The translations under genes and the position numbers were made by a program. Shown here in pieces: positions 11,646 to 33,355 of a stretch of DNA of 35,301 nucleotides; position 1 is the first letter of the stretch, and the number at the start of each line of letters is the position of its first letter. This DNA comes from an uncultured Verrucomicrobiota bacterium (lineage in GTDB: Bacteria; Verrucomicrobiota; Verrucomicrobiia; Opitutales; Opitutaceae), in assembly GCA_903960515.1 (NCBI GenBank), contig CAJCBL010000188.1:1-35301 (forward strand), written 5' to 3'. The notes under the pieces were generated by a model, which saw nothing but the letters and a program-made list of their open reading frames with translations, searched no databases and had not been told where the DNA came from.

Positions 11646-11732
11646 TGGTGCCGAGGAAGGGAGTCGAACCCATACGCCGGTGAAGGCGCTAGACTCTGAA
11701 TCTAGTGCGTCTGCCAATTCCGCCACCTCGGC
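11646..11732 (-). tRNA. tRNA-Leu (anticodon CAG)
   Basis: On the minus strand an 87-nt cloverleaf starts GCCGAGG and ends CCTCGGC-A-CCA, with an encoded CCA. The anticodon stem CTAGA/TCTAG encloses the loop TTCAGAG, giving anticodon CAG. A long variable arm (CGCCTTCACCGGCG) marks a class II leucine tRNA, and the T arm has GGTTCGACTCC. It reads CUG leucine codons, which are very common in this GC-rich window. Confidence 0.96.
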
Positions 11733-19539: not shown

Positions 19540-21531
19540 CTAGGGTGCCAGCACCTCTACGGTGCCGGCAGTAGGCTGCACCCCGCGAGGGGAGATCCCG
19601 CCGCCGGGCGCCGGCCGGGCGATCAAACGCTGCGGCCCTCCTCCGGGGCTCACCAGACTGGCGGTAACAAAGATGAGCAGGTTGCGCTTCGCGGCCCCCT
19701 CGCCCGACGAGCGAAACAGCCGGCCCACCGCGGGCAGGTCGCCCAGCAGCGGCACCTTGTCGTTGACCTTCCGCGTCTCCTCCCTCGTGAGACCACCCAT
19801 CACCAGCGTCGCACCGTCCCACAGCGTCACCCGGGTGGTCACCTCGCGGCGCGAAAATATCGGCTGATAGAATCCCGAGGGAATGGTTACCGTCCTGCCC
19901 CCCGACACCGCCAGGCTCGGCCCTCCGTACTCCACAAACCCCTCGAACTCGGTCACCACGGGATGGAGATCCAGGGTGATGCTGTGCTCGTCCTCCTCCA
20001 CTGTCGGGGTCACCTTCAGGTCCACGCCCACGTTCTCGGTGGTGAAATCCTGCGGAGTGCCCGCCGTGATCGTCACGCCCGCGGAGCCCGAATCGTTCGC
20101 ACCGCTCTGCCCCACCTGGCTCTGGATCTGGCCAAATTGCCGAGGATAGCGCAACTGCTGCGCCACAGTGATGCTCGCGGAATGTCCCGACAGCACCGTG
20201 ACCTTGGGGGCGCTCAGCAGGTCGCTGCCCTGCTTCTGCGAGAGCGCCCGGATGGTCGCACTCACGTCGAACTCCCCGATGAACCCGCTGATCTGGGCCA
20301 GCGGCGCAGCCCCCGCGCCCAGCGGCACCACCCCCGGCAGCACCGGTGCGCCCACGTTGGCCACCGTTTCACCATCGATCAAAATCGCGCTGCCGGTGTG
20401 GCTGCCTCCAAAGGCATCGGACACGCTGCGATTGGCGGTGGCGTACTTCTCCCTCGGCAATCCAGTAACCGGATCCACTCGACGCGAGGCGCCCCAGTCG
20501 ATCCCGAGCTCCTCCAGCGCCCCCTCCGCCACCTCGATGAACTTCGCCTCGATCTCCACCTGTCGCACGCTGGCGTAGCGCGCCAGGATGGTGCGGATGC
20601 GCGCGAGATTGCGGGCCGTCTGGGTGACGAGGATCGCCGAACCGTCGAACACCAGGCTGCTCCCCTCAACGCCATCGAACTTCACGCCGGCCTGCTGCAG
20701 GAACTCGCGCAGCCCCGCGTTCTCGCCGCCCCTACCGGAGGAATGCTCCTCGGCCGCCGGCCCCTTGCCTACGGTGGACATCGCCCCGCCTGCGGTCATG
20801 CGCGCCACCACCGCCCGCGACACCGCCAGCACCGCCGTATCCAGAGCGGTGCGCTCGCCGCCCGGGCGCACCACCACGGCATCGGCCTGCACCTCGTAAC
20901 CGTACCCCACCGACTCGGTGAGATAGTCCAGCACCCGGCGCAGCGACAACTGGCGCACCGCCAGGGTCACCGCCGGGTTCGCCTTTGTGGGATCGAGCAA
21001 CACGAGGTTCACGCCCCTCTCGCCGTCGCCACGATCGCACTCCAGCGCCAGCCCCGCCAACGTCGCCAACGCCCCCGCGAGGCTCGCGCCCGTGAAATTC
21101 ACCTCGGGCAACACGATCGCATCCAGTTTGCGCCCCAGCGCCGACTCCGCCCCCGCTGAGGCCAGCGGTCCGGGCACGACCCCGCCGGCCCCCGGGCGGC
21201 GCCAGGCCGCATCCACTTCGGCCACCATCTCGGCGCGGGTGCGCCAACGCTCCGCCAGTCCCTGCCTGCCGATGCGAGCCAGGAACGCCGCGGCGTCCGC
21301 ATTATGCGGATCCAGTGTCTCCACTTGGCGGAAGGTCGCCGCCGCCGCCTCGCTCTCGCCGGCGAGAAACTGGCAGCGCGCCCGCGCCACCAGCTCGCCC
21401 ACCTTCGCAGGCTCCCCGGCATCGGCCGCGGTGCACGCCCCCGCACACACCGCCACCGAGGCGGCCACCATGAGCCGCCTGCAACGGCAAGCGATCCACC
21501 GCCCCATCCCCGCATCTGTTGTTGTCTTCAT
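19540..21531 (-). CDS. Type IV pilus outer-membrane secretin, Amuc_1098-like
   Basis: This secretin forms the outer-membrane gate of a type IV pilus or related secretion system. The 663-aa product has a signal-like start (MVAASVAVCAGACTAADAGE region), a TPR-like helical part (FLAGESEAAAATFRQVETLD) and N-domains (VNLVLLDPTKANPAVTLAVR, RVLDYLTESVGYGYEVQ). The linking domain has ILVTQTARNLARIRTILARY and VRQVEIEAKFIEVAEGALEE. The C-terminal secretin core reads SAPKVTVLSGHSASITVA, VGVDLKVTPTVEEDEHSITL, TLWDGATLVMGGLTREE and VPLLGDLPAVGRLFRS. Its upstream neighbours match Akkermansia Amuc_1099-1101, giving the Amuc_1098 assignment. A GAGGAG ribosome binding site overlaps the stop of the preceding gene, with a 9-bp gap, so it is translationally coupled. 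Confidence 0.9.
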   Translation of the reverse strand: MKTTTDAGMGRWIACRCRRLMVAASVAVCAGACTAADAGEPAKVGELVARARCQFLAGESEAAAATFRQVETLDPHNADAAAFLARIGRQGLAERWRTRAEMVAEVDAAWRRPGAGGVVPGPLASAGAESALGRKLDAIVLPEVNFTGASLAGALATLAGLALECDRGDGERGVNLVLLDPTKANPAVTLAVRQLSLRRVLDYLTESVGYGYEVQADAVVVRPGGERTALDTAVLAVSRAVVARMTAGGAMSTVGKGPAAEEHSSGRGGENAGLREFLQQAGVKFDGVEGSSLVFDGSAILVTQTARNLARIRTILARYASVRQVEIEAKFIEVAEGALEELGIDWGASRRVDPVTGLPREKYATANRSVSDAFGGSHTGSAILIDGETVANVGAPVLPGVVPLGAGAAPLAQISGFIGEFDVSATIRALSQKQGSDLLSAPKVTVLSGHSASITVAQQLRYPRQFGQIQSQVGQSGANDSGSAGVTITAGTPQDFTTENVGVDLKVTPTVEEDEHSITLDLHPVVTEFEGFVEYGGPSLAVSGGRTVTIPSGFYQPIFSRREVTTRVTLWDGATLVMGGLTREETRKVNDKVPLLGDLPAVGRLFRSSGEGAAKRNLLIFVTASLVSPGGGPQRLIARPAPGGGISPRGVQPTAGTVEVLAP

Positions 21532-21540
21532 GGAAACTCC

Positions 21541-22998
21541 TCAGCGGCGCACCGGCTCGAGCCTACGCTTGGCCCCCGGTTTTGCCGGCCCATCCATCCT
21601 CGTGACTTCCGCCCACGCAGGCGCCTCGGCTACACCATCGATCCGATACTGCCCCGCCCCCACCCGCACCGTCGCCCCGGCGATCCCTTCCACGCGAGCC
21701 CCCTGGCCTCCCTCGCGCAAGACCGCGACCAACTCGGGGCCCGGGGTATTCACTCCCTCAGTCAACCGGCGCACCACGGCATCGGCCCCCCGCACCAGCG
21801 CCTCGGCAACCCACTGCCCCGCCGGCGTACGCACCAGCATCCACTCCTCCAGGGCGAGCGCCCCCGCCTCATCGAGCCCGCCGCGGCGCAGCCGCACCGT
21901 GCGCCCACCGACTGTATCCTCCAATACCACCCAACCGCCGTCGGCGCCGCCAGCGCCACCATGCCCGACCAGGCGCCAGCGGTAGTGCAACCGCCGCACC
22001 TCCACCAGTTCCACCGCTTTGGCTTCCGCCGCTACAGCGGCCGCCCCGGCGCCGGCCAGCCGCCAGTCCCGCCGGTCCTTGGCGTACTCAATCGCCGGCG
22101 ACCCAAAGACCTCGAACACCCACCCTGCCCCGGCCGCTTGCGCCCGCGGAGGCGCCCACGTTCGCCCAGGCAGGGCGGGTTCCAGGCGGGCGGTAACCGG
22201 AACCTCTGGACCCACCGGCGACAGCAGCTCCAGCGTCAAGGTGAACTTGCTGGGCGCCGACCCGGCAGCCTGCTTCGCATCGACCGGCAACGGCTCCACC
22301 CGCAATTCGCGCACCACCACAACCGGAGCCTCCAACCCGGCAAGGACCGGCAGATACCGCCGCAGGCTGGCAGTATCGCCAATGAACGACACCCCGCACC
22401 CGCGCGCATCCACCAGACCGGGAATACCCGGCGGCTGCACGCCCCGCCCACCCGCCGCAGCGTCTCCACCAAGCCACACGGCGGCCAGCGCTTGCGGGCG
22501 CGCCGCCCACAGCGCCTCCAGCGGCCGCTCAAGCGCCATCCGCTGTTTCCATACTGCGGACACCTCACCCAACGCAGGACCCTCGCGGGCGAACTGCCCG
22601 AAGCCGAACCGCTCGTCGGCCGCCAGCGCCACGCCCACAGCCTGCGCCCGCGCCCGGTTGCGCTCGACAAAACCAGTGATGTCCGCATACGCCTCGATGC
22701 GGCCGGCCGGCGCGGTGCCAGCCTCACCCACCTCGGCCACCGGGCCGAAGAGCTCCGCGCGCGCCCGCTCCAGCTCGGCCCTAAGTGCTCCCACCTCAAC
22801 CTCCACCGATGCGTTCGCCACGGCGCTGGCCTTCGCCAACTCCCGTCGCCCGGCCTCCAGCACGCGTCCGGCGCGCCTGCACCCCGCCTGCTCCCGGGCA
22901 AGCACTACTCCCGCAACCAACGCCAACGCCGCCAGCGCCCCCATGGACGCATAAAAGCCGGGATACGAGCCCAGGCGGTGCCTGAGTTCCGGATTCAC
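21541..22998 (-). CDS. Pilus assembly protein, Amuc_1100/Amuc_1099-like fusion (PilO/PilP role)
   Basis: The 485-aa inner-membrane protein starts at GTG 22998, which overlaps the stop of the upstream gene (GTGA). It has one N-terminal membrane segment (FYASMGALAALALVAGVVLA) and a coiled coil (VEVEVGALRAELERARAELF). A periplasmic ferredoxin-like domain of PilO/Amuc_1100 type follows (about 90-290). A separate C-terminal part begins WVFEVFGSPAIEYAKDRRDW and continues in beta-strands (MLVRTPAGQWVAEALV, VGAGQYRIDGVAEAP), resembling a PilP/Amuc_1099-type piece. Its likely job is to link the cytoplasmic PilM/PilN part to the secretin. Akkermansia has separate Amuc_1099 and Amuc_1100 genes, so this looks like a fusion; that reading is from architecture only. 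Confidence 0.72.
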   Translation of the reverse strand: MNPELRHRLGSYPGFYASMGALAALALVAGVVLAREQAGCRRAGRVLEAGRRELAKASAVANASVEVEVGALRAELERARAELFGPVAEVGEAGTAPAGRIEAYADITGFVERNRARAQAVGVALAADERFGFGQFAREGPALGEVSAVWKQRMALERPLEALWAARPQALAAVWLGGDAAAGGRGVQPPGIPGLVDARGCGVSFIGDTASLRRYLPVLAGLEAPVVVVRELRVEPLPVDAKQAAGSAPSKFTLTLELLSPVGPEVPVTARLEPALPGRTWAPPRAQAAGAGWVFEVFGSPAIEYAKDRRDWRLAGAGAAAVAAEAKAVELVEVRRLHYRWRLVGHGGAGGADGGWVVLEDTVGGRTVRLRRGGLDEAGALALEEWMLVRTPAGQWVAEALVRGADAVVRRLTEGVNTPGPELVAVLREGGQGARVEGIAGATVRVGAGQYRIDGVAEAPAWAEVTRMDGPAKPGAKRRLEPVRR

Positions 22999-24572
22999 AG
23001 CGGCACCTCCGGTTTCATCACCAGGGTGCAACTGAAGCGGAGCAGCCCTGGCTGGGCATCGTCGAACCGCTCGTCCTCTACTGCCGCCACAAAGCGCGAA
23101 GCCAGCAGCCCCTCGCGCAGGCGCCGCACCCGCTCCAGCGGCTCGGCCCCGGGCCGGCGCAGCACGCGGCCGGTCACGGCGATCCGCAGCCCCTCGGCGG
23201 GAGCCGCCTCCACGCCCGCCACTGCCCGGGAGCCCCCGAGGCCAGCGCCTCCCGCAGCGGGCCCCCCCGCCGGCTGCGGGCGCACCGCCAGCGAATCGAG
23301 CCACACATCCTCCACCTGGGTGAGCCGTTCCTGCATATCCACCAACCAATCCAGCCAGACCGAGCGCGCCGCTCGGATCGCCGCCAGCGCATCCAGTTGT
23401 TGGCGCAAGAGCGCCCTCTCGCGCTCGCCCTCGCGCTGTTTCTGCTCCGCCACGCGTTGAGGCACCAACCGCGCCGCCACCACGGAAGCTTCCCGCTCCA
23501 GCCCGAGCCGTTCCCTCCGCAGCACGAACAACGCAGCCAACAACCCGGCCACCGCCACTGCCGCCAGCCCCAGCCATCGGCCCTTGACCCGCCGGAAGCT
23601 ACGCTCCCGCCGCCGTGCCGGCGGCAGCAGATCGATCCCCGCATCGCCCGCCGCCAGCGCGAGACCGACCACCACGCCCATCTGCAGCGCAACCTTGTCC
23701 GCACCGCTGGCCCGAGCTCCGATGCGCACTCGCCGCAACGCGTCAAAGCCGGTCACTCGCACGGCCGCCCTCAAGGCCAGCAGGGCCACCTCGCCCGGGC
23801 CCACACCCTCATCGCCCCCAAGAAACACGTCGATCTGGCCCGCCCCAGCCGAAGCCCCGGAGCCCGCCATCCGTGCGAGCTCCACGGCGACGCGATCCAG
23901 CCACGGGGCAGCCTCTCGCTCGTGAGACTCCGACTTCGGGTCCGCTGTGGTCGCCAGGACCTGGGGTCGGTCCGGCGCGACCCCCGCTCCCGGAAGACCA
24001 ACCAGGCGTACGGCTATATCCGTCCGTTCCACACGCACCAGCAGCGCGGTGCGCCCGTCGATCCAGACCACCACGGCGGGCCCCACCACCTCAGGATAAT
24101 TGTGACGCAGCGCGCGCACCAGCGCCCAGCCGGCCGGGACGATCCGGTCCACCGTGAGCCCCCACCGCCCAATCTCGGCGCAAAGCCCCTCACCAACGGC
24201 GAGCTTCATCACCGCAACCACTTCGCGCTCCACCACCCCGGGCGACACCGGCGCATGGGCCCAGACCACATCCGCCAACGCACCGCCCGCGATCTGCCCG
24301 GCCTCAAAGCCGAGCACCTGCTCGCGCTGAGCGCCGGTAGCGAGCGGCAAGCCGACAGCCTTGAGCAGGGTCCGATGTGCCGCTGGGGCCACGACAACGA
24401 TGCCGCGCTTCGCCCATTCCGGAGGCGGCGGGCGCTCCCCATCCTGCCCGCACTCCACAGAGGGAGAGAAGGCACGATCCAACAACACCAGGTCGCCATC
24501 GGGTGTGAGGTCGAAGGCACCGACAACGCTCCTCCTGGCGCCGCAATCAAGGGCTACAGAACGAGCACGCAT
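22995..24572 (-). CDS. PilM-PilN fusion-like pilus assembly protein (Amuc_1101-like)
   Basis: The 525-aa product has an actin-like cytoplasmic PilM region (1-320), with phosphate-1-like ARSVALDCGARRSVVGAFDL and a later AVVVWIDGRTALLVRVERTD. Then comes an IDLLPPARRRERSFRRVKGR linker, typical of the PilM-PilN boundary. A single membrane segment follows (WLGLAAVAVAGLLAALFVLR), then a long coiled coil (EREASVVAARLVPQRVAEQK) and a PilN-type periplasmic domain (WLDWLVDMQERLTQVEDVWL, then LRIAVTGRVLRR). It would bridge the pilus motor platform in the cytoplasm to the periplasmic alignment complex. It is the first gene of the operon, starting at ATG 24572, and overlaps the next gene by 4 bp. Confidence 0.8.
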   Translation of the reverse strand: MRARSVALDCGARRSVVGAFDLTPDGDLVLLDRAFSPSVECGQDGERPPPPEWAKRGIVVVAPAAHRTLLKAVGLPLATGAQREQVLGFEAGQIAGGALADVVWAHAPVSPGVVEREVVAVMKLAVGEGLCAEIGRWGLTVDRIVPAGWALVRALRHNYPEVVGPAVVVWIDGRTALLVRVERTDIAVRLVGLPGAGVAPDRPQVLATTADPKSESHEREAAPWLDRVAVELARMAGSGASAGAGQIDVFLGGDEGVGPGEVALLALRAAVRVTGFDALRRVRIGARASGADKVALQMGVVVGLALAAGDAGIDLLPPARRRERSFRRVKGRWLGLAAVAVAGLLAALFVLRRERLGLEREASVVAARLVPQRVAEQKQREGERERALLRQQLDALAAIRAARSVWLDWLVDMQERLTQVEDVWLDSLAVRPQPAGGPAAGGAGLGGSRAVAGVEAAPAEGLRIAVTGRVLRRPGAEPLERVRRLREGLLASRFVAAVEDERFDDAQPGLLRFSCTLVMKPEVPL

Positions 24573-24791: not shown

Positions 24792-26612
24792 TTACGGCAG
24801 GCTCACGCGCAGGCGAAGGAAACGCCGGGCGTCACCGGCACTCAAAACCAGCGAGGCGCACACCAATTCCGTCTGCCCGTCGCCGTCGACATCGGGGTAT
24901 TCCACCACTGTGGTGACCTCCGCCGCGCCCCACGCGACGAGATCCGCCGAGGCCTCGTAACCGAAGATGAGATTCGCCGCCTTGCTCCGCCGATGGGTGA
25001 TACTGAGGGCCGGCGCGGCCGTGCCCGGCACGACCGCGCCGACCGGCATCACCCCCGACTGGCTCTGCATCGGCGGGGTGCCAAAGGCGTATTCCAGAAT
25101 ATTGGCCAGACCGTCGCCGTCGGGATCTTCAAGCGGGCCGGAGACCGCATCGTTGGTCTGATCGGCGCCCGAAAATTGGCTAAGACGCCACTCCGAGTAG
25201 CCGCCAAACTGCGCGTGAACCAGCAAAGTGGTACTTGCCGTGATGCTGGCGGAATCACGCACCGTCACCGTGAGCAGGTTGTCTCCGGGTTGCAGATCGA
25301 TGTCGCAGATACTCCAGGCGGTGGTACCCACGCCGGCCCCCTCCCCGCCTCGATCATTCCGCCACCAGATGCCGCCCACCGTCTTGCCTGCTGCTCCGGC
25401 GGCGGTCCCCTCAAGGGCGAGCAGCGAATTCGGTGTGCTCGTCAGGCCCGTGCTGGTAGGCAACGCGATTACCACGCTTGGGGCGGAGAGATCCGCGCCG
25501 GTGGGCACGTTCCAGAAGTAGTCATTGAGCGTGGTGACACCTCCCCCGGTGGCCACCCCTGTGCCAGTGGCCCAACTCGGGCCGGTGGCAATCGCGAGGA
25601 AGAGCGTGGAGTCGCCCGCCACTGGCGCATCGGTCACCAACCACTGGTCGGTGCCGGCAGCAAAAGCATAGGCACTGGTGTCCACCCCGCCACCACCCAC
25701 CCAGGGGGTGAAGGTCCAGTTGATCTTCGTAACGCCGCCCGGGATCGAGGCCGTGCCGGCGACGCTGCGCAGGGATACTGGCGGGGGCGCCGCCCAGTGC
25801 CACCCGGGCGCGGTGATGGACACGAGCGGAGCGCCCGTCATCGGTCGATTGCGCCACTGGGCCAGCATCCAGGGACGCAGGAAGGGGGTGGCGTAGGCGG
25901 TTGGCCAGATTGCATGTCCGCCGGTGGAATACCGAGTATAGATCGCCCGGCCCCCAGCCCGCCGCAGCGCGCTGATCGCGTCGTCGCTGCCGCGGATGCC
26001 CACGACGGTGTCGTCGAGCGCATGGAAGCACCAAACCGGCACCCCAACGATCCTCTCATAGGCCCCCGCGCCCACCCCGCTCATCGGAACGGCGGCTGCG
26101 AACAGAAACGGGTACTGGGTGAGTATCCGCCACGCACCGCCGCCGCCCATGGAGATGCCGGTAAGGTAGATCCGGTTATGGTCGATGGGGTAGTCCGCCT
26201 CCAGTTTCCCGATAGCGCGGGCAACCTGCTTGAGGGTGTCCACGTCCCAGCCGTGGGCCCGCCCGGCCTGCGGGGCGAGCATGAAGCAGGGCGCTGCCGC
26301 CTGACAGGGCGCCGACACGAGCGAGAGCGCGCCGTTGGCCTCGCGATCCAACTGGGAGGTGTTGTTGTCTCCACACTCGCCCACGCCGTGCAGGAATACG
26401 ATCAGCGGATACTCCCGCAATGGGTCGCAATCAGCCGGCACGAGGTAGCGGTACGGCAGATCGCGGAGTTCGGCGCCCACCTTGGGTATGGTCGCGTAAA
26501 GAAAATCCTCCGCAGCAGCTGCGCGAGCAGGCGGGGCGAGCGGGTTGGCGGCACCGAGCAATCCAGCCACGAGCCACAACCGGACCAGCGAAATGGAGCG
26601 AACGGGAAACAT
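24792..26612 (-). CDS. Secreted alpha/beta-hydrolase esterase with C-terminal extension
   Basis: The 606-aa exported hydrolase has a signal peptide (VRLWLVAGLLGAANPLAPPARAAA region) and a CE1/phospholipase-like alpha/beta-hydrolase domain (about 40-260). Its triad is visible: S154 in TGISMGGGGAW, D200 or D201 in CFHALDDTVVG, and H233 in STGGHAIWPTAY. The oxyanion-loop motif LIVFLHGVGECGDN is present. After it come beta-rich repeats (about 265-500), then DPDGDGLANILEYAFGTPP, a calcium-binding-like DxDxDG motif common in verrucomicrobial secreted proteins, and a C-terminal beta domain with another DVDGDGQ. The role is probably ester cleavage on plant polysaccharides or a related polymer; the substrate is unknown. 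ATG 26612 is preferred over the upstream GTG. Confidence 0.8.
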   Translation of the reverse strand: MFPVRSISLVRLWLVAGLLGAANPLAPPARAAAAEDFLYATIPKVGAELRDLPYRYLVPADCDPLREYPLIVFLHGVGECGDNNTSQLDREANGALSLVSAPCQAAAPCFMLAPQAGRAHGWDVDTLKQVARAIGKLEADYPIDHNRIYLTGISMGGGGAWRILTQYPFLFAAAVPMSGVGAGAYERIVGVPVWCFHALDDTVVGIRGSDDAISALRRAGGRAIYTRYSTGGHAIWPTAYATPFLRPWMLAQWRNRPMTGAPLVSITAPGWHWAAPPPVSLRSVAGTASIPGGVTKINWTFTPWVGGGGVDTSAYAFAAGTDQWLVTDAPVAGDSTLFLAIATGPSWATGTGVATGGGVTTLNDYFWNVPTGADLSAPSVVIALPTSTGLTSTPNSLLALEGTAAGAAGKTVGGIWWRNDRGGEGAGVGTTAWSICDIDLQPGDNLLTVTVRDSASITASTTLLVHAQFGGYSEWRLSQFSGADQTNDAVSGPLEDPDGDGLANILEYAFGTPPMQSQSGVMPVGAVVPGTAAPALSITHRRSKAANLIFGYEASADLVAWGAAEVTTVVEYPDVDGDGQTELVCASLVLSAGDARRFLRLRVSLP

Positions 26613-27035
26613 CGGGGTAATGCCGCACCTGTTGCAGGTCACCCGCTCGGTGCCCTCTCCTTATAGCCGAAATGTTCCATTTTTCCACGATGCCACTCGA
26701 ATTTGACCGGCCCCTACAGCGGCCCGCCGGGCCCCGCGTAGTCAAGCAACCCCGCCCCGGCCAAGCCCTCGCAAGTCCCGGCGATCCCGAGACCGCAGCA
26801 AGCTCAATTCCGCCTGCCGCCGCACCGGCTTGCGGCTCAAGTGGAGGTAGGCAAACAGCGATTAGTCACCATTCTTACTGAACTACACATTTTCGGCCTT
26901 GCTAATCCATACCAACCCTATCTAGTTTCATCGCATCAGCTCGACAACCCGCTGCCATATCTCTCCCGTCTCCTTCACCTGGGCCTACTTACAACCGGCC
27001 AAAATCCATTTCCCGCACTAACCGACCTCGACTCC
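26613..27035. other. Intergenic region, AT-richer leader of the sulfur locus
   Basis: No gene is seen. From about 26860 to 26990 base composition drops sharply toward A/T compared with the neighbours, with TTGCTA and TATCTA at 26899 and 26919 (spacing too short for a standard promoter). It likely carries the promoter for the downstream genes. I see no SAM-riboswitch-like structure. Confidence 0.45.
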
Positions 27036-27218
27036 ATGAGCGCCTCCACCGACACCGCCCCCACCTCCGCAACTGCATTGCCCGAATGGCTCGAGATCGT
27101 GCGCGAGCGAGTCGAGGGCCTGCGCTTTGGCATCGTCCAAATCGTCGTCCACGACGCGAAGGTCACCCAGATCGAGCGCACCGAGCGCACCCGGCTCTCA
27201 GGCCCGCGCGACAACTAG
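27036..27218 (+). CDS. YezD/DUF2292-like small protein
   Basis: The 60-aa cytosolic protein has the core EWLEIVRERVEGLRFGIVQI followed by VVHDAKVTQIERTERTRL, matching the YezD (DUF2292) family pattern of a helix and a two-strand hairpin ending in xxIExTExxRL. Family members are small and often sit at the head of sulfate or sulfur-assimilation gene clusters, as here before a sulfate-binding protein. Its molecular role is not established. ATG 27036 gives a short Ser/Thr/Ala-rich N-terminus; the upstream frame is noncoding in character. The gene ends 132 bp before the binding-protein gene, with a ten-C run in that gap. Confidence 0.82.
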   Translation: MSASTDTAPTSATALPEWLEIVRERVEGLRFGIVQIVVHDAKVTQIERTERTRLSGPRDN

Positions 27219-27350
27219 GCCAGCCCACTTTCGCCTTCCGGATCCACCGGCGGCCCCCCCCCCATCCAACTTCCAGCTACGACTGACCCGACATCGGGAA
27301 GCGTCCCAGATCCCTAAACAGAAACCAACATCCAGCCTCTGGCTCCTCCC

Positions 27351-28346
27351 ATGAAACTCCTCCGTCTCTTCTCCTCCGCACTCCTGCTCGGCGCCGCGCT
27401 CGCCGCCTCCGCCAAGGACATCGAACTGCTCAATGTGTCCTACGACCCGACACGCGAGCTCTACGTCGATTTCAACAAGGCCTTCGCCGCCCAATGGCTG
27501 GCCAAGACCGGCGACACCGTCACCGTGAAACAATCGCACGGGGGTTCCGGCAAGCAGGCCCGCTCGGTAATCGACGGCCTCGCCGCCGACGTCGTCACCC
27601 TCGCACTCGCTGGCGATATCGATCCGATCGCCAACGTCGCCAAACTCCTGCCCACCGATTGGCAGAAGCGCCTGCCCAACAACTCCTCGCCCTACACCAG
27701 CACCATCGTCTTCCTCGTACGCAAGGGGAACCCCCAGCACATCAGCGACTGGGATGATCTCGTGCGGCCGGGCGTGGCGGTGATCACGCCCAACCCGAAG
27801 ACCTCCGGCGGGGCCCGCTGGAACTACCTGGCGGCCTGGGCCTACGCCAAGCGCCGCCACGGCGGCGACGAAGGAGCCAAGCAGTTTGTCTCCTCGCTCT
27901 TCAAGAACGTGCCGGTGCTCGACTCCGGTGCCCGGGGTTCCACCACCACTTTCGTGCAGCGAGGTATCGGCGATGTACTGCTCGCTTGGGAAAATGAGGC
28001 CTTCCTCGCGCTCAAGGAATTTGGCGCCGAGAAGTTCGAGATCGTAGTGCCTTCGCTGAGCATCCTCGCCGAGCCGCCGGTGTCCATCGTCGACAAAGTG
28101 GTCGATCGCCACGACACCCGCGCCGTCGCCCAGGCCTACCTCGAGTTCCTCTACTCCGACGAAGGCCAGGACATCATCGGTCGCAACTTCTACCGCCCGA
28201 GCGCCCCGGCCGCGATCGCCAAATACGGTAAGCAGTTCCCCAAGATCGAACTGGTCACCATCGACTCCGAGTTCGGCGGCTGGACCACTGCCCAGAAGAC
28301 ACACTTCGCCGACGGCGCCGTGTTCGACCAGATCTACGCCAAGTAA
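27351..28346 (+). CDS. Sulfate ABC transporter substrate-binding protein
   Basis: This is a periplasmic sulfate (or thiosulfate) receptor of the Sbp/CysP family, 331 aa, the usual length. The signal peptide is [20 protein letters not shown], followed by [20 protein letters not shown]. Both family signatures are present: [16 protein letters not shown] (148-163) and VLLAWENEA (209-217). The oxyanion-binding [12 protein letters not shown] is at 62-73. The SBP gene is alone: the permease and ATPase genes (cysT, cysW, cysA) are not in this window, and a TonB-dependent receptor follows instead. There is no clear Shine-Dalgarno (leader CTCCTCCC). Sulfate is the family ligand; an organosulfur anion cannot be excluded given the context. 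Confidence 0.95.
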
Positions 28347-28595
28347 TACGCCCCCCCGCCGGGGATATCCGATCACATCGGGCCGGCTGCAGCAGCGGAA
28401 TCCCCGCTGCTGCGGCACCGCGAAGACGGTCCAGCCCTCTGTAAGCCCGCCTCCCACAACCGCGGGCCTGTCGCACGCTTACCGATTCCCGATGTATTCG
28501 CATGCCTAGGGCAGCGCTGTAGCCACACCTCCCGCTGCCGCGTGCCTGCGCTCCGTCCTGCTCCCCTACATCACTCCGACTCTCCTACTTTTCAG

Positions 28596-31229
28596 ATGAA
28601 CAAGTTCACCACGCTCAATCGCACCGCGACCACGCTCGCGGCGGCCGCCTTTTTGGCCGGGCTCTCCAGCCCGCTCCAAGCCCAGCCCCTGCCTCCCTCA
28701 CCCGAGGCCGACAATCCAGCCGCCACCGCATCCGGCGAAAAGATCGTCCTGGACGAGCTGGTCGTCACCAACACCAACTCCACCAAGACCGCCCTGCCGG
28801 TGCGGCCGGTTAGCGGAGTGTACGGCTTCAGCGCGGCCTACCAGGACATCCCGCGCAGCATCACCCAGATCAACCCGCAACAGTTCGCCCAGGACGTAAT
28901 CTCCAGCTACAGCGACTTCACCCGCTATTCGCCCTCGGTCAACCAGGCCACCGGTCAGCTCGCCAACTACGGCTCGTCGACCATGCGCGGCTCGCTCTCC
29001 GATGTGTATCAAAACGGTGTGCGCATGCTGGTGCGCCAGAGCAACAACCGCCCCTTCACCCTCAACGCCTACGAGGCGGCCGACATCGTAGCCGGCCCCG
29101 CTCCGGTGATCTACGGCCCCTCCGCGCGCACCGCAGGCTACTTCAACTACCTCACCAAGAAGCCGTATTTCGACGCCACCCACGGCAGCTTCACCGCCAA
29201 GCTCGGCCGGCTCTACTTCGACGGCGCCGGCATCCGCGACAACGAGAACGTACAGGTCGACGTGGGCGGCCCGATCATCCCCGGCAAGCTCGCCTACCGC
29301 GTGAGCTACCAGGGCGAGAACGTAGAGTCGTACTACCACAACGTAAACGACCGCTACCACGACCTCTACGGCACCCTGGGCTGGCAGCCGGTGGCCGGCC
29401 TCACTGTAGACTGGAACTTCGAGTACGGAACCTTCGACTGGAAGGTCAACAACGGCCTCAATCGCGTAACCAATGCCCTGATCCGCGACGGCACCGATCT
29501 CGCCGGCCCGGCCACCCCGATCATCCAGATCGGCACCGGCAACGCCGCCGCCTACTACTCTCCCGTGCTCACCGGCTCGGGCGACGTCACCGGGTGGCTA
29601 CGCCGCGCCAAATCGGGCAACAACTACACGGCTGGCGCCTCGGTGGCCAACCCCACCAAGAACACCGCCGCCGGCGCCGGCACCATCGTGGGCTATGTCC
29701 TCGATCCCACACTGGTGCATCCGGAGTCCCTCGACTCGCAGGCAGCCCTCAACGCCCCCGACTTCACCTCGACCACCAACGCTTTCAACACCCAGTTGCG
29801 CGTGAAGAAGGTGTTCGGCGACCAGTTCACACTGCTCAACAACACCATCTACCAGTACTACAACACCGATACCGCCTCCAACGGCGGCTTCTACAACTGG
29901 ATCACCACCAACACCCTCGAGAACCGCACCGAGGGCCTGTTCACCGCCAACTACTCGCTCTTCGGCCTCCCGGTGAAGCACCAGACCAACACCGGCCTCT
30001 CCTACCGCTTCGAGGAGGTATGGAACGTCAAGGACGCCCAGAAGGCCGGCTACGGCCCCACCGGCGACTACTACGACCTCACCGCCGCCGACTCCACCTT
30101 CACCCGCAACTCCCTCTTTGGCACCTCGGTGTATCCCTTCACCGGCACCGCCACCACCCCCGTGCTCACCAAGTACGGATACCTGAAGGGCTTCTATCCC
30201 TACCCGGCCTGGAGCGAGAGCCCCGACAACTCCGTGTCGCCCGGCGGCTCCGACCCCGCCCAGCCCTGGCTGAGCAGCGCCACCAACCACACCTGGACCA
30301 ACAGCCTCAGTTTCTACTCCCAGCACAGCATCGCCTTCGACGAACGCGTGCTGCTCGACCTCGGCTTCAGGCAGACCCGAGTGGCCTCGCGCATCCGTAA
30401 TCCTCAGCCGCTCAACGAAGCCAACGCCGCCATCACCGACGCCATCCAGCGCTGGCTGCCGAGCTGGTCGGGGAGTTTGAGCTACAAGCCGCTGCCCCGC
30501 CTGACCACCTACGCCACCTATGCCAACGTGGTGGCCACCAACGGCATGACCACCGGCTCGCCCACCTGGGCCACCGTAAACGGCGTAGCCAACAAGTACG
30601 ACCCGGCCAATTTCCACAGCGTCAGCGACCTGCGCGAGATCGGCGCCAAGTACGAGCTCATCCCCTCGCAGCTTGTGGGCGGCGTCTCCGTGTATAGCCA
30701 GACTCGCGACCTCACCCTCACCACCGTGCCCGGCGCCGACCCCGTTCTCGCCCGCGGCCAGTACCAGGGAGTGGAGACCAACCTGCGCTACCAGCCGGCG
30801 CGCAACTACTCGGTAGGCGTCAACTACACCTACATCGACGCCGTCACCCTCAACCAGAGCGTGAGCGCGCCCACCTCCCTGCTCGCGGACAACTCCACCA
30901 ACATCCTGGGCACCACTCCCTTGGGGCTTGGCAACTGGCGGGTTACCAACCTGCCGCGCCAGAACTTCACGCTCTTCGGGTCCTATGAGTTCGCCTCCGG
31001 CTTCGGCGTGAAGAGCGACCTGTGGCTGCGCAGCCCCTACATCGCCAACGCCAACGGCTCGGTGCGGGTGCCCGCAGAATACAGCCTCAACGTGGGCCTC
31101 TTCTACAACCAGCCCCGGTGGACCGTCGCCCTGGATTTCCAGAACGTGACCAACGAGCGCAACTTCGCCGGAGCGGCCACGCTGCTGGAGCCGTTCAACG
31201 TCCAAGCCCGCTACACGTACCGCTTCTGA
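28596..31229 (+). CDS. TonB-dependent outer-membrane receptor
   Basis: The 877-aa outer-membrane transporter has a signal peptide (LAAAAFLAGLSSPLQAQ) and a TonB-box-like segment VLDELVVTNTN (51-61). The plug domain (about 75-190) has QDIPRSITQINPQQF, STMRGSLSDVYQNGVRM and AYEAADIVAGPAPVIYGP. A 22-strand-type barrel rich in Asn/Thr/Tyr follows and ends with the terminal Phe of outer-membrane proteins (VQARYTYRF). The fold is FhuA/FecA-like; these receptors import siderophores, cobalamin, sugars or sulfur compounds. It lies directly after the sulfate-binding protein (249-bp gap) and before its own TonB gene. The substrate is inferred to be a bulky sulfate ester or sulfonate. Confidence 0.95.
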   Translation: MNKFTTLNRTATTLAAAAFLAGLSSPLQAQPLPPSPEADNPAATASGEKIVLDELVVTNTNSTKTALPVRPVSGVYGFSAAYQDIPRSITQINPQQFAQDVISSYSDFTRYSPSVNQATGQLANYGSSTMRGSLSDVYQNGVRMLVRQSNNRPFTLNAYEAADIVAGPAPVIYGPSARTAGYFNYLTKKPYFDATHGSFTAKLGRLYFDGAGIRDNENVQVDVGGPIIPGKLAYRVSYQGENVESYYHNVNDRYHDLYGTLGWQPVAGLTVDWNFEYGTFDWKVNNGLNRVTNALIRDGTDLAGPATPIIQIGTGNAAAYYSPVLTGSGDVTGWLRRAKSGNNYTAGASVANPTKNTAAGAGTIVGYVLDPTLVHPESLDSQAALNAPDFTSTTNAFNTQLRVKKVFGDQFTLLNNTIYQYYNTDTASNGGFYNWITTNTLENRTEGLFTANYSLFGLPVKHQTNTGLSYRFEEVWNVKDAQKAGYGPTGDYYDLTAADSTFTRNSLFGTSVYPFTGTATTPVLTKYGYLKGFYPYPAWSESPDNSVSPGGSDPAQPWLSSATNHTWTNSLSFYSQHSIAFDERVLLDLGFRQTRVASRIRNPQPLNEANAAITDAIQRWLPSWSGSLSYKPLPRLTTYATYANVVATNGMTTGSPTWATVNGVANKYDPANFHSVSDLREIGAKYELIPSQLVGGVSVYSQTRDLTLTTVPGADPVLARGQYQGVETNLRYQPARNYSVGVNYTYIDAVTLNQSVSAPTSLLADNSTNILGTTPLGLGNWRVTNLPRQNFTLFGSYEFASGFGVKSDLWLRSPYIANANGSVRVPAEYSLNVGLFYNQPRWTVALDFQNVTNERNFAGAATLLEPFNVQARYTYRF

Positions 31230-31290
31230 TCGAGCCAGTTTGGGCCGGCCGGCAGAACCGGCCGGCCCCCGATTTTCCGGTACAGCTACC

Positions 31291-32097
31291 ATGAGCACAT
31301 CCACTGAATTCACACTCCCCCGCTGGCCCGCATCCGCCCCGGCATCTTCGGGCTCCACCCGCGGCGACCGTTCATCAGTGGATTTGTGCCCCGCTCGGCT
31401 GCAGGACCAGGCCCGCACCCGCCGCATCCACACCGCGGTGGCGCTGCTGGTGGCCGTGGGCGGCCACGCCCTGGCCCTGCTCGCCTTCAACTCGCCTGGC
31501 ACCACCCGCCACCAGATCGCCTCCTCCACTACCGTGGAGCAGGCTGTGCCGCTCGATTTCACTGTCCCGCCCGAGGAGCCGCCGCCCACTGCGGTGGCCG
31601 AGACCGCCCCCGAGGCGCGCACCCAGGACACCCAGGACGGCCCCACTGCCGCCTCCCTGCCCGAGCCCATGTCCAGCGTAGGCGTGGCCGACATCACGGT
31701 GGTCATCCGACCGTCCATTCCCGTGAAAGCCTCAACCGACGCCGCCAGGTGGTCTGTCCCCGCCAGCCAACTGCGCCCCTCGGCCGCCCCGTCCCTCGCC
31801 CGCGTATTCAAGCTGGGCGAGCTCGACCGACGCCCCGTGCTGGTTTCAAGCGTGGAGCCGGTCTTCCCGGGGGAGCTGAGCACCTCCAGCGTCCAAGGCG
31901 TGGTGGTGGTGCACTTCATCGTCAACGCCCACGGCGCCGTAGAGTCGGCCGAGGTCGTATCCGCCCCGCACCCGTTGCTCGGCACCGCAGTCACCAACGC
32001 CCTGGCGCGCTGGCAGTTCCGCGCCGGCATGAAGAACGGCCGCGCCGTGAGCACCGAGATGGAGCAGCCCGTGCGCTTCAACCTGGCCGGCACCTGA
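31291..32097 (+). CDS. TonB energy-transducing protein
   Basis: The 268-aa inner-membrane protein passes proton-motive energy to the outer-membrane receptor. A long cytoplasmic N-terminus (1-45) precedes one membrane helix (IHTAVALLVAVGGHALALLA, about 46-67). A Pro/Glu/Ala-rich periplasmic linker follows (VPPEEPPPTAVAETAPEA), then a C-terminal TonB domain (VEPVFPGELSTSSVQGVVVV, VNAHGAVESAEVVSAPHPLL, ALARWQFRAGMKNGRA). The linker is short compared with E. coli TonB, and the cytoplasmic tail is unusually long. ATG 31291 fits the gap; it starts 61 bp after the receptor gene and is probably dedicated to it. exbB/exbD are not present in the window. Confidence 0.9.
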   Translation: MSTSTEFTLPRWPASAPASSGSTRGDRSSVDLCPARLQDQARTRRIHTAVALLVAVGGHALALLAFNSPGTTRHQIASSTTVEQAVPLDFTVPPEEPPPTAVAETAPEARTQDTQDGPTAASLPEPMSSVGVADITVVIRPSIPVKASTDAARWSVPASQLRPSAAPSLARVFKLGELDRRPVLVSSVEPVFPGELSTSSVQGVVVVHFIVNAHGAVESAEVVSAPHPLLGTAVTNALARWQFRAGMKNGRAVSTEMEQPVRFNLAGT

Positions 32098-32164
32098 GCA
32101 ACCCCGACCAACCGCGCCGCTCCGCCGGCGCAGCCCCGCCTTTCCCTCCGCAGTTATCCACCCT

Positions 32165-33355
32165 ATGAATTCCCGTCGCCAATTTCTTCGTCAGGCCGCC
32201 CTGGGCGCCGCCGCCATCTCCACAATTCCATCGCTGCTGCGAGGCGCCGGCGAAGCCCCGGCCTCCGCGGCAGCCGCCACCGCCCCCCAGCCCGCAGCCG
32301 GCGCTGCCGGCCGCCTCCTGCCCCTGGTCGACTGGCACAGCCACATCGTGACGCCCGGCGAGCTGCACTTCCTTTCCGGCCGGCCCCAGGCACCGCGCGT
32401 GTTCACCGACTCCCAGGGCCGCCAGCTCTTCGAGAACGTCACCACCGTTTCCAGCGTCGCCCGCGGCGCCTCGCCCACCTCACCCTCGGACATCGCCACG
32501 CGCATCCGCCATCTGGAGGCGAGCGGAGTGCAGCGCCAGCTCCTCACCTACACCGTGGCAATCGGCTACGACGCCACCCTGCCCGTGGAGGAGCTGCGCC
32601 CCTTCTTTCGCGGGCTCAACGACGAGCTCGCCGCCATCGTGCGCGCCCACCCCGACCGCTTCCTCGGAGTGGCCGCCCTGCCCACCACCGATCCGGTCTG
32701 GGCCGCCGAGGAGCTCGCCCGCGCCCACAAGGAACTGGGCCTCATCGGCGCCGCCCTGCCGCTCAACGCCTTCGCCACCCTCGAAAGCGCCCGCACCCTC
32801 GCCCCTGTCTTCGCAGCCGGCCAGAGGCTCAACTCCCACTTCTTCATACACCGAGCGCCGGCCAGCCCCAAGCTCCCCGGCCAGCCGCCGCTCATCGTGC
32901 CCACCGACATCGAATCCGTTCGCTGGAGCGTGATCAGCAACACCCACCTGGTGAACGGCGCGCTCACCCTGGGGCTCACCGATTTCCTCGAACCGTATCC
33001 GGATGTCTCGGTGCAGGTGATCATGCTCGGGGGCTTCCTGCCCTACCTCATCGACTCGATCATCGCCTCGGGGCCGAAGCTGGGCATCAAGGACCCGCTC
33101 CAGCGCCTGCGCCGAATCTATCTGGAGCCCGGCCCCTACTCGGGAAGCAACTCCGATTGGGTGGCCTACGCCGCCGCCAAGTTTGGCGCCGACCGTATCC
33201 TCTTTGGCACCGACTACGGTGTGGGAGGCGGCACGGCCACCGACCGGCTCACGCCCTCGCTGGCCAAGCTCGACGCCGCCCTCACCCCCGCTCAGCGCCA
33301 GCTCATCTACGTGGACAACACCCGCGCCCTGCTCAAGGCCAAGGGCATCTCCTGA
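32165..33355 (+). CDS. Tat-exported amidohydrolase (ACMSD-like family 2)
   Basis: The 396-aa periplasmic enzyme begins with a Tat signal (RRQFLRQAALGAAAISTIPS) and folds as an amidohydrolase TIM barrel. Zinc ligands of the ACMSD-type family are visible: H58 and H60 in VDWHSHI, H229 in HFFIHRA and D350 in ILFGTDYG. The usual HLGG motif, which carries the catalytic His in ACMSD relatives, reads MLGG here (M287 in VQVIMLGGFLPYL, codon 33023-33025). The enzyme may therefore be altered in chemistry or inactive. Family reactions are decarboxylation or hydrolysis of aromatic or amide substrates. It follows tonB by 67 bp and is probably co-transcribed. Its TGA stop also marks the first bases of a composite repeat. 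Confidence 0.88.
   Translation: MNSRRQFLRQAALGAAAISTIPSLLRGAGEAPASAAAATAPQPAAGAAGRLLPLVDWHSHIVTPGELHFLSGRPQAPRVFTDSQGRQLFENVTTVSSVARGASPTSPSDIATRIRHLEASGVQRQLLTYTVAIGYDATLPVEELRPFFRGLNDELAAIVRAHPDRFLGVAALPTTDPVWAAEELARAHKELGLIGAALPLNAFATLESARTLAPVFAAGQRLNSHFFIHRAPASPKLPGQPPLIVPTDIESVRWSVISNTHLVNGALTLGLTDFLEPYPDVSVQVIMLGGFLPYLIDSIIASGPKLGIKDPLQRLRRIYLEPGPYSGSNSDWVAYAAAKFGADRILFGTDYGVGGGTATDRLTPSLAKLDAALTPAQRQLIYVDNTRALLKAKGIS

Follow-up and report, generated by a model that had tools for sequence, protein, structure and literature searches.

A candidate organosulfur uptake unit joining OscA-like, sulfate-binding and TonB-dependent receptor genes in an uncultured Opitutaceae bacterium

A 35,301-bp stretch of contig CAJCBL010000188.1 (hereafter the window) from an uncultured Opitutaceae bacterium, whose assembly comprises 5.52 Mb in 379 contigs and is 96.8% complete, carries five genes in the order oscA-like, sbp, TonB-dependent receptor (TBDT), TonB and a PF04909 protein exported by the twin-arginine translocation (Tat) pathway (AHase), where sbp encodes a sulfate-binding protein (Sbp). 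The most economical reading, which we hold with moderate confidence, is that this set would constitute a sulfur-starvation uptake system importing an organosulfur compound. Several lines of evidence tie the unit to sulfur and its receptor to Sbp, and the operator-like motif upstream of oscA together with the recurrence of the neighbourhood in other genomes is more than chance. An earlier note, made from the sequence alone, had proposed such a tie to sulfur, and these two results bear it out.

Five co-directional genes and their families

All five genes lie on the forward strand with open frames and Pfam or NCBIfam scores that confirm the families named in the earlier note. The first (27036..27218) encodes a DUF2292/YezD/OscA-like protein of 60 aa (PF10055, 52.4 bits; cut-off 22), which is the sole DUF2292 match of its assembly and scored 39.2 bits against the OscA equivalog NF033785, below the cut-off of 85. 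As in an oscA-sbp unit, it is followed on the same strand after 132 bp by the gene of a periplasmic Sbp (27351..28346; NF008022, 514 bits, cut-off 288; TIGR00971, 490.6 bits, cut-off 155.5), the second copy in the genome. The TBDT (PF07715, 37.3 bits, cut-off 23.9; PF00593, 49 bits, cut-off 27) has an open frame from GTG 28542 but more probably starts at the ATG at 28599, which is followed by a signal-peptide-like sequence (28599..31229). Similarly, TonB (PF03544 TonB_C, 54 bits) has an open frame from TTG 31240 and a likely start at ATG 31291 (31291..32097). The AHase gene (32165..33355) encodes an amidohydrolase-fold protein with an N-terminal RRQFL twin-arginine motif (PF04909 Amidohydro_2, 64.5 bits; cut-off 26.4). 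Spacing and direction suggest that the five genes form one operon, and the 252-bp gap between sbp and the TBDT gene could hold a separate promoter.

An operator-like motif upstream of oscA

To define the motif, a Gibbs search was run on 33 regions upstream of CymR-like Rrf2 genes from sulfate clusters of relatives; the training set also contained the site at C151, the second sbp locus of the same assembly, and excluded the window. The search returned an imperfect 32-bp palindrome, TTTAAttCCTACTaAATcAATGTAGATTAAAt, placed about 40 bp upstream of the start in most training regions. In the window, a match of 21.1 bits was found at 26901..26932 on the forward strand, 103 bp upstream of oscA, and may represent an operator of a CymR-like Rrf2 regulator; the next best match scored −1.45, and none of 200 block shuffles was as high (maximum 13.0). 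The Rrf2 protein encoded at C151 has CymR (NF047409) as its best equivalog, with 81 bits below the cut-off of 195, and exceeded the cut-off of the general Rrf2 family TIGR00738 (116.5 bits; cut-off 73.3). Opitutaceae background of 173,823 bases yielded four matches of at least 8 bits, the best with 10.8 bits; this set replaced an earlier background of 102,919 bases (five matches of at least 8 bits, one of at least 15), which contained two sulfur-linked receptor loci. Loci from other phyla, 700,384 bases in all, contained no match of 11 bits or more.

The motif was also found upstream of receptor genes in other genomes, each upstream region being compared with 1000 simple shuffles. Receptors of the window's subfamily were preceded by matches of 13.8 bits in genome G117 (0/1000 shuffles as high) and 11.3 bits in G093 (2/1000), where the gap is shared with a divergent gene. 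Among more distant TBDTs, matches preceded those of G052 (14.3 bits, 0/1000), G053 (16.3 bits, 0/1000) and G005 (8.9 bits, 1/1000). Of the evidence that most of the receptor units may belong to the sulfur regulon, this computed motif is the strongest piece. Elsewhere in G117, a near-palindromic match of 22.3 bits (L056:11322-11353) precedes genes that encode an aminotransferase and a protein with a thioredoxin fold.

Recurrence of the receptor and AHase genes

TBDTs of the same subfamily (>1500 bits) were detected in 3 of 150 sampled family genomes, using a profile built from those three receptors, and in all three the AHase gene lies one or two genes downstream. Strong AHase matches (E<1e-70) occurred in four of the 150 genomes (the window's own, G117, G005 and G093), and two congeners, G010 and G056, had none. 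In G117 the order is TBDT-AHase-AHase2; CysW and CysT follow at a distance of about 8 kb, and the same contig carries an OscA-porin-Sbp-DUFa-DUFb-CysTWA-CysK cluster farther along. In G093, TBDT-AHase is followed by DUFb-DUFa-OscA on the opposite strand. A metagenome-assembled genome (MAG) of Opitutaceae from Kiruna has one contig (L077) that starts inside Sbp and continues with DUFa-TBDT-AHase, and another (L189) that carries OscA and ends inside Sbp; the two ends share 17 identical bases, which gives a combined order of OscA-Sbp-DUFa-TBDT-AHase.

In four of four assessable genomes, TBDT-AHase has a sulfate-cluster gene no more than 12 kb away, and in three of them one within 2 kb (adjacent); L090, a 4.35-kb contig with TBDT-AHase, was left out of this count, and the duplicate records L093/G093:C12 and L078/G117:C80 were each counted once. 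Under random placement, the chance of four of four within 12 kb is roughly 1.8e-7 and that of three of four within 2 kb roughly 2.4e-6, with cluster numbers and sizes assumed. The check for conservation in relatives suggested by the earlier note thus did not refute it: genomes that have the genes also keep the neighbourhood. The unit is nevertheless rare, with the TBDT subfamily in 3 of 150 genomes. The private TonB of the earlier note is not conserved; the gene is absent from the four other TBDT-AHase units (L056, L055, L077 and L090) and seen in the window unit only, and we rejected it as a defining part.

A wider sample of the phylum, 387 genomes, gave three with AHase (E 1e-50), and in one of these, G231, the gene has an in-frame TGA. 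Among 72,556 plasmid records, 202 had an AHase match, all with <60% identity, and 14 had a TBDT match, with 23–32% identity.

Sbp copies and the Opitutaceae sulfate cluster

The two Sbp genes of the assembly, in the window and at C151, are 89% identical to each other. The window Sbp matched the structure 1SBP with E 1.4e-136, and all eight positions that we take to be the sulfate contacts of 1SBP are identical in the alignment. The C151 locus reads Rrf2-Sbp-(DUFa fragment)-DUFb-CysT-CysW-CysA-CysK (the cysTWA and cysK names were tested), and because there is no ABC importer among the five window genes, the window unit would rely on C151 for the entry of sulfate into the cytoplasm.

The Opitutaceae sulfate cluster, Rrf2-OscA-Porin_O_P-Sbp-DUFa-DUFb-CysT-CysW-CysA-CysK, has OscA, Sbp and the operator-like motif in common with the window, whereas the window lacks the porin, DUFa/DUFb and the ABC parts and has TBDT-TonB-AHase after Sbp. 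Among 11 hand-picked Opitutaceae loci, Porin_O_P follows OscA in nine, with Sbp next in eight of these (also L057); both the window and L189 have nothing in the slot between oscA and sbp. The assembly of the window yielded no Porin_O_P, either in a search whose control was positive in 2 of 14 genomes or with a single-protein query. DUF2292 and Sbp are present in 65 and 76 of the 150 family genomes, respectively.

DUFa and DUFb are adjacent proteins of ~270 aa that recur regularly in Opitutaceae sulfate clusters (L057:5500-7139; also L060, L062, L065, L069 and L055); DUFa has no Pfam match, and DUFb matches AstE_AspA_cat (27.7 bits; cut-off 25). In two genomes of one genus, a divergent OscA-like gene stands right after a GAF/sigma-54 activator gene (L145:7955-9819 and L148:8777-10662; Pfam for L145 only).

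TBDT-Sbp neighbours with unlike receptors

In four of five genomes (G052, G053, G005 and G046), more distant TBDTs (28–30% identical) have an Sbp paralogue within 2.6 kb, at distances of 75 to 2517 bp; the fifth receptor, in G080, has no Sbp paralogue nearby, and G077 (a 3.7-kb contig) was left out of the count. These paralogues are 42–49% identical to the window Sbp. In the paralogue of G046, seven of the eight presumed sulfate contacts of 1SBP are changed, which hints at a ligand other than sulfate. TonB, ExbB and ExbD genes occur within the TBDT-Sbp run in G052 and G046. Runs of TBDT, Sbp paralogue, TonB, ExbB and ExbD are those at L146:3161-11011 and L145:12825-19159, with an order that differs between the two, and their Sbp paralogues start with a GCC-containing stretch ahead of the binding domain.

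The pattern extends to Pseudomonadota. In three of nine genomes picked for their AHase homologues, a non-random set in which part of the Sbp loci was read, a TBDT gene stands directly before a second Sbp gene: in Povalibacter (L190:3935-8803), where the pair adjoins a LysR gene, in a Steroidobacter MAG (L178:13956-17487) and in Asticcacaulis (L182:4861-8777), where it adjoins an OscA-like open reading frame (ORF).

The window TBDT itself matched no NCBIfam family at E 0.01, TIGR01783 (cut-off 223.5) included, and its AlphaFold2 model, built from four rows, had a mean pLDDT of 45.1, too poor for a fold search.

Fold, residues and relatives of AHase

The AlphaFold2 model of AHase (pLDDT 88.3, 26 rows) is nearest to ACMSD, LigW and the gamma-resorcylate and iso-orotate decarboxylases (VIA-align Z ~30–31 over ~300–330 residues, 17–24% identity). 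H58, H60, H229 and D350, presumably the metal ligands expected in PF04909, are present in all 26 aligned rows, and H261 in 16. AHase has the fold and the HxH/His/Asp ligand pattern of the PF04909 decarboxylases; in contrast to them, the window enzyme is Tat-exported and lacks the histidine of the HGG stretch, which we take to be catalytic in ACMSD-type decarboxylases. That histidine aligns with Met287 in the window, and all 26 homologue rows have Met, Gln or Asn at the position. AHase was also considered as a sulfatase, a candidate rejected because its fold and profile matches are those of PF04909 decarboxylases and hydrolases.

The dinuclear oxygenases AibH2/SfbO (8sm6 and 8fun) aligned with a Z of 26, below the decarboxylases, and the five genes include no Rieske gene. 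According to PMC10811679, AibH2 and SfbO are marked by a dinuclear site of Mn/Fe or Fe2 and by a Rieske reductase encoded nearby; SfbO is described there as a PF04909 oxygenase with a sulfate ion in its crystal and a low-affinity activity on sulfonate buffers. In the available part of a Gordonia paper (PMC11852219), an amidohydrolase is merely a co-occurring protein. As further background, 4-sulfomuconolactone hydrolase is a sulfite-freeing amidohydrolase; the papers listed in a literature search did not mention it, and it is not used here as a precedent.

In a tree of 28 AHase rows (the fragment L092 was left out), the window enzyme groups with those of the Kiruna MAG and G117 (support 100/97). 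This group belongs to a clade of 14 members (100/100), the rest of which are from Pseudomonadota. The label 'sulfur gene adjacent', carried by nine of the 28 rows, required six changes, and 49 of 500 shuffles were as low, so that there is no clear clustering. AHase adjoins Sbp in Peristeroidobacter soli and in a Steroidobacter MAG; in the set of nine AHase-homologue genomes, the loci with AHase next to Sbp are L084 and L089. In Pseudomonas huaxiensis its neighbours encode an SsuA-like protein and a DszC/SfnB-like oxidoreductase (all below curated cut-offs). In G005 it lies beside two monooxygenases of the NtaA/DmoA family, of which the one tested scored 588 bits (cut-off 279.7), and porin-like and NMT1-like genes are nearby; farther relatives in organosulfur-type settings are those of L096, L095, G005 and G231. 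The sigma-54 regulators near some AHase loci were assigned no sulfur-type name. In another Verrucomicrobiota family, an AHase homologue with an in-frame TGA (L196:9423-10463) has SsuA-like genes and a TonB receptor nearby.

Other features of the window

Divergent from oscA on the reverse strand lies a gene for an esterase related to PHB depolymerases (24792-26642; NF050058, 67.8 bits, not reaching the cut-off of 150). Further along the same strand is a secretin gene (19540-24572; PF00263) adjoined by two large ORFs, which have no Pfam match and resemble parts of pilus or secretion assemblies. A search of the window for known RNA families returned a tRNA at 11649-11732 and nothing else.

Discussion

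On the reading of the set as a sulfur-starvation system for an organosulfur compound, the genes would be expressed when sulfur is limiting, under the control of a CymR-like Rrf2 regulator that acts on the site in front of oscA. The receptor, energised through TonB, would import a sulfur-bearing organic compound that is too large or too scarce for porins, and the exported PF04909 enzyme may act on this compound in the periplasm, possibly by hydrolysis, decarboxylation or hydration and not by sulfate-ester cleavage. Judging from the residues of Sbp and from the C151 cluster, the extra Sbp would bind released or free sulfate and pass it to the CysTWA importer, while OscA may have a part in the sulfur response. 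The earlier note had envisaged a larger sulfate ester or sulfonate processed in the periplasm; organosulfur import stands as the best reading, and a role of AHase as a sulfate-ester hydrolase has no direct support, given a fold nearest to the ACMSD, LigW and gamma-resorcylate decarboxylases. A more far-reaching proposal, which we advance tentatively and regard as doubtful, is that the HGG-altered enzyme frees the sulfur group in the periplasm, from where it would proceed as sulfate via Sbp and CysTWA, and that TBDT-Sbp cassettes with unlike receptors arose several times in Verrucomicrobiota and Pseudomonadota.

Several observations weigh against organosulfur import by this unit. The TBDT-AHase unit is rare and patchy, and none of the five genes encodes a sulfatase, a sulfonate monooxygenase or a part of an ABC importer. 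No motif was found in the window between sbp and the TBDT gene (best −8.9), so that co-transcription with oscA is only presumed, and the region upstream of the G046 receptor scored an insignificant 4.8 bits (119/1000 shuffles as high). The Kiruna MAG, which has the closest gene order, showed no match of at least 5 bits on the contig that holds oscA (L189) and none of at least 8 bits on L077, which counts against the motif as a general rule. The chief fact against a role of AHase in sulfur only is provided by its own clade, in which 9 of the 14 members, all Pseudomonadota, have no sulfate-uptake gene labelled adjacent, and six of these nine share another TBDT family upstream; one of the nine, L085, carries a gene that is also found in sulfate clusters. 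Finally, the plug of the window TBDT resembles that of a siderophore receptor, the one for enantio-pyochelin (3qlb; E 1.9e-12, three-row profile).

This last likeness, the sole relative in the PDB found from the receptor profile, is what would commend a siderophore uptake unit, for example for a pyochelin-like compound, that landed beside sulfate genes. We regard this as highly improbable, since the receptor matched neither TIGR01783 nor any other NCBIfam receptor family at E 0.01, none of the five genes is iron-related by name, and TonB receptor plug domains occur across cargo classes. An improbable explanation of a different kind is read-through between two unrelated units, OscA-Sbp serving sulfate and TBDT-TonB-AHase serving a sulfur-free aromatic acid, lactone or similar compound. 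It would agree with the fold and sequence of AHase, nearest to aromatic-acid and related decarboxylases, with the close homologues in Duganella and some Steroidobacteraceae that are accompanied by another TBDT but by no gene labelled as sulfur-related, and with the absence of a motif before the window TBDT and in the Kiruna contigs; however, it does not sit well with sulfate-cluster genes lying close by in all four assessable genomes despite differing local orders, nor with the motif matches that immediately precede the TBDT genes of G117 and G093.

The receptor might instead replace a missing sulfate porin, admitting sulfate, thiosulfate or another small oxyanion (or a metal chelate of such an anion) that Sbp then binds, with AHase as a passenger. 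We consider this unlikely. The porin slot that is filled in 8 of 11 Opitutaceae loci and empty in the window and L189, and an assembly in which no Porin_O_P was found, speak for such a replacement, and the receptors near an Sbp paralogue in four genomes where no AHase is labelled, as well as the TBDT-Sbp neighbours in Pseudomonadota, point the same way. On the other hand, the TBDT adjoins AHase in all three subfamily genomes among the 150 and in L077 and L090, and the changed contacts of the G046 paralogue suggest that its ligand may not be sulfate. Moreover, to our knowledge small anions such as sulfate need no TonB receptor.

The components of the proposed organosulfur system have precedents. 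The Pseudomonas oscA-sbp unit (P. corrugata 28, Pseudomonas sp. UW4) likewise has a DUF2292-type gene directly before the Sbp gene and is tied to sulfur starvation and chromate in the available parts of PMC2996968 and PMC3596284; the window differs in adding a TBDT, TonB and a Tat amidohydrolase and in an OscA score below the equivalog cut-off. As to the SftP-type precedent invoked by the earlier note, the available text of PMC3596284 describes an atsACBR-sftR-atsK-sftP sulfate-ester cluster of Pseudomonas sp. UW4 with a TonB receptor. That cluster and the window both have a TonB receptor within a sulfur gene set, but an arylsulfatase, an alkylsulfatase, a LysR regulator and an ABC importer of the sulfonate type are all missing from the five window genes. 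Each by itself, the oscA-sbp arrangement and a TonB receptor among sulfur genes are thus already known. In the titles and abstract beginnings of the open-access literature, a weak basis for a negative, no description was found of a TBDT adjoining Sbp or of a Tat amidohydrolase in a sulfur unit, and the available part of PMC12581299 names no TonB receptor for sulfur.

Organic sulfur can exceed 95% of the total in aerobic soils, according to the accessible part of PMC3596284. If the proposed role in organosulfur uptake is true, Sbp genes together with the sulfur motif would serve as a guide to sulfur-cargo TonB receptors in a phylum rich in orphan receptors, and we know of few outer-membrane receptors for organic sulfur. 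Furthermore, a PF04909 subfamily that lacks the usual histidine would gain a testable role.

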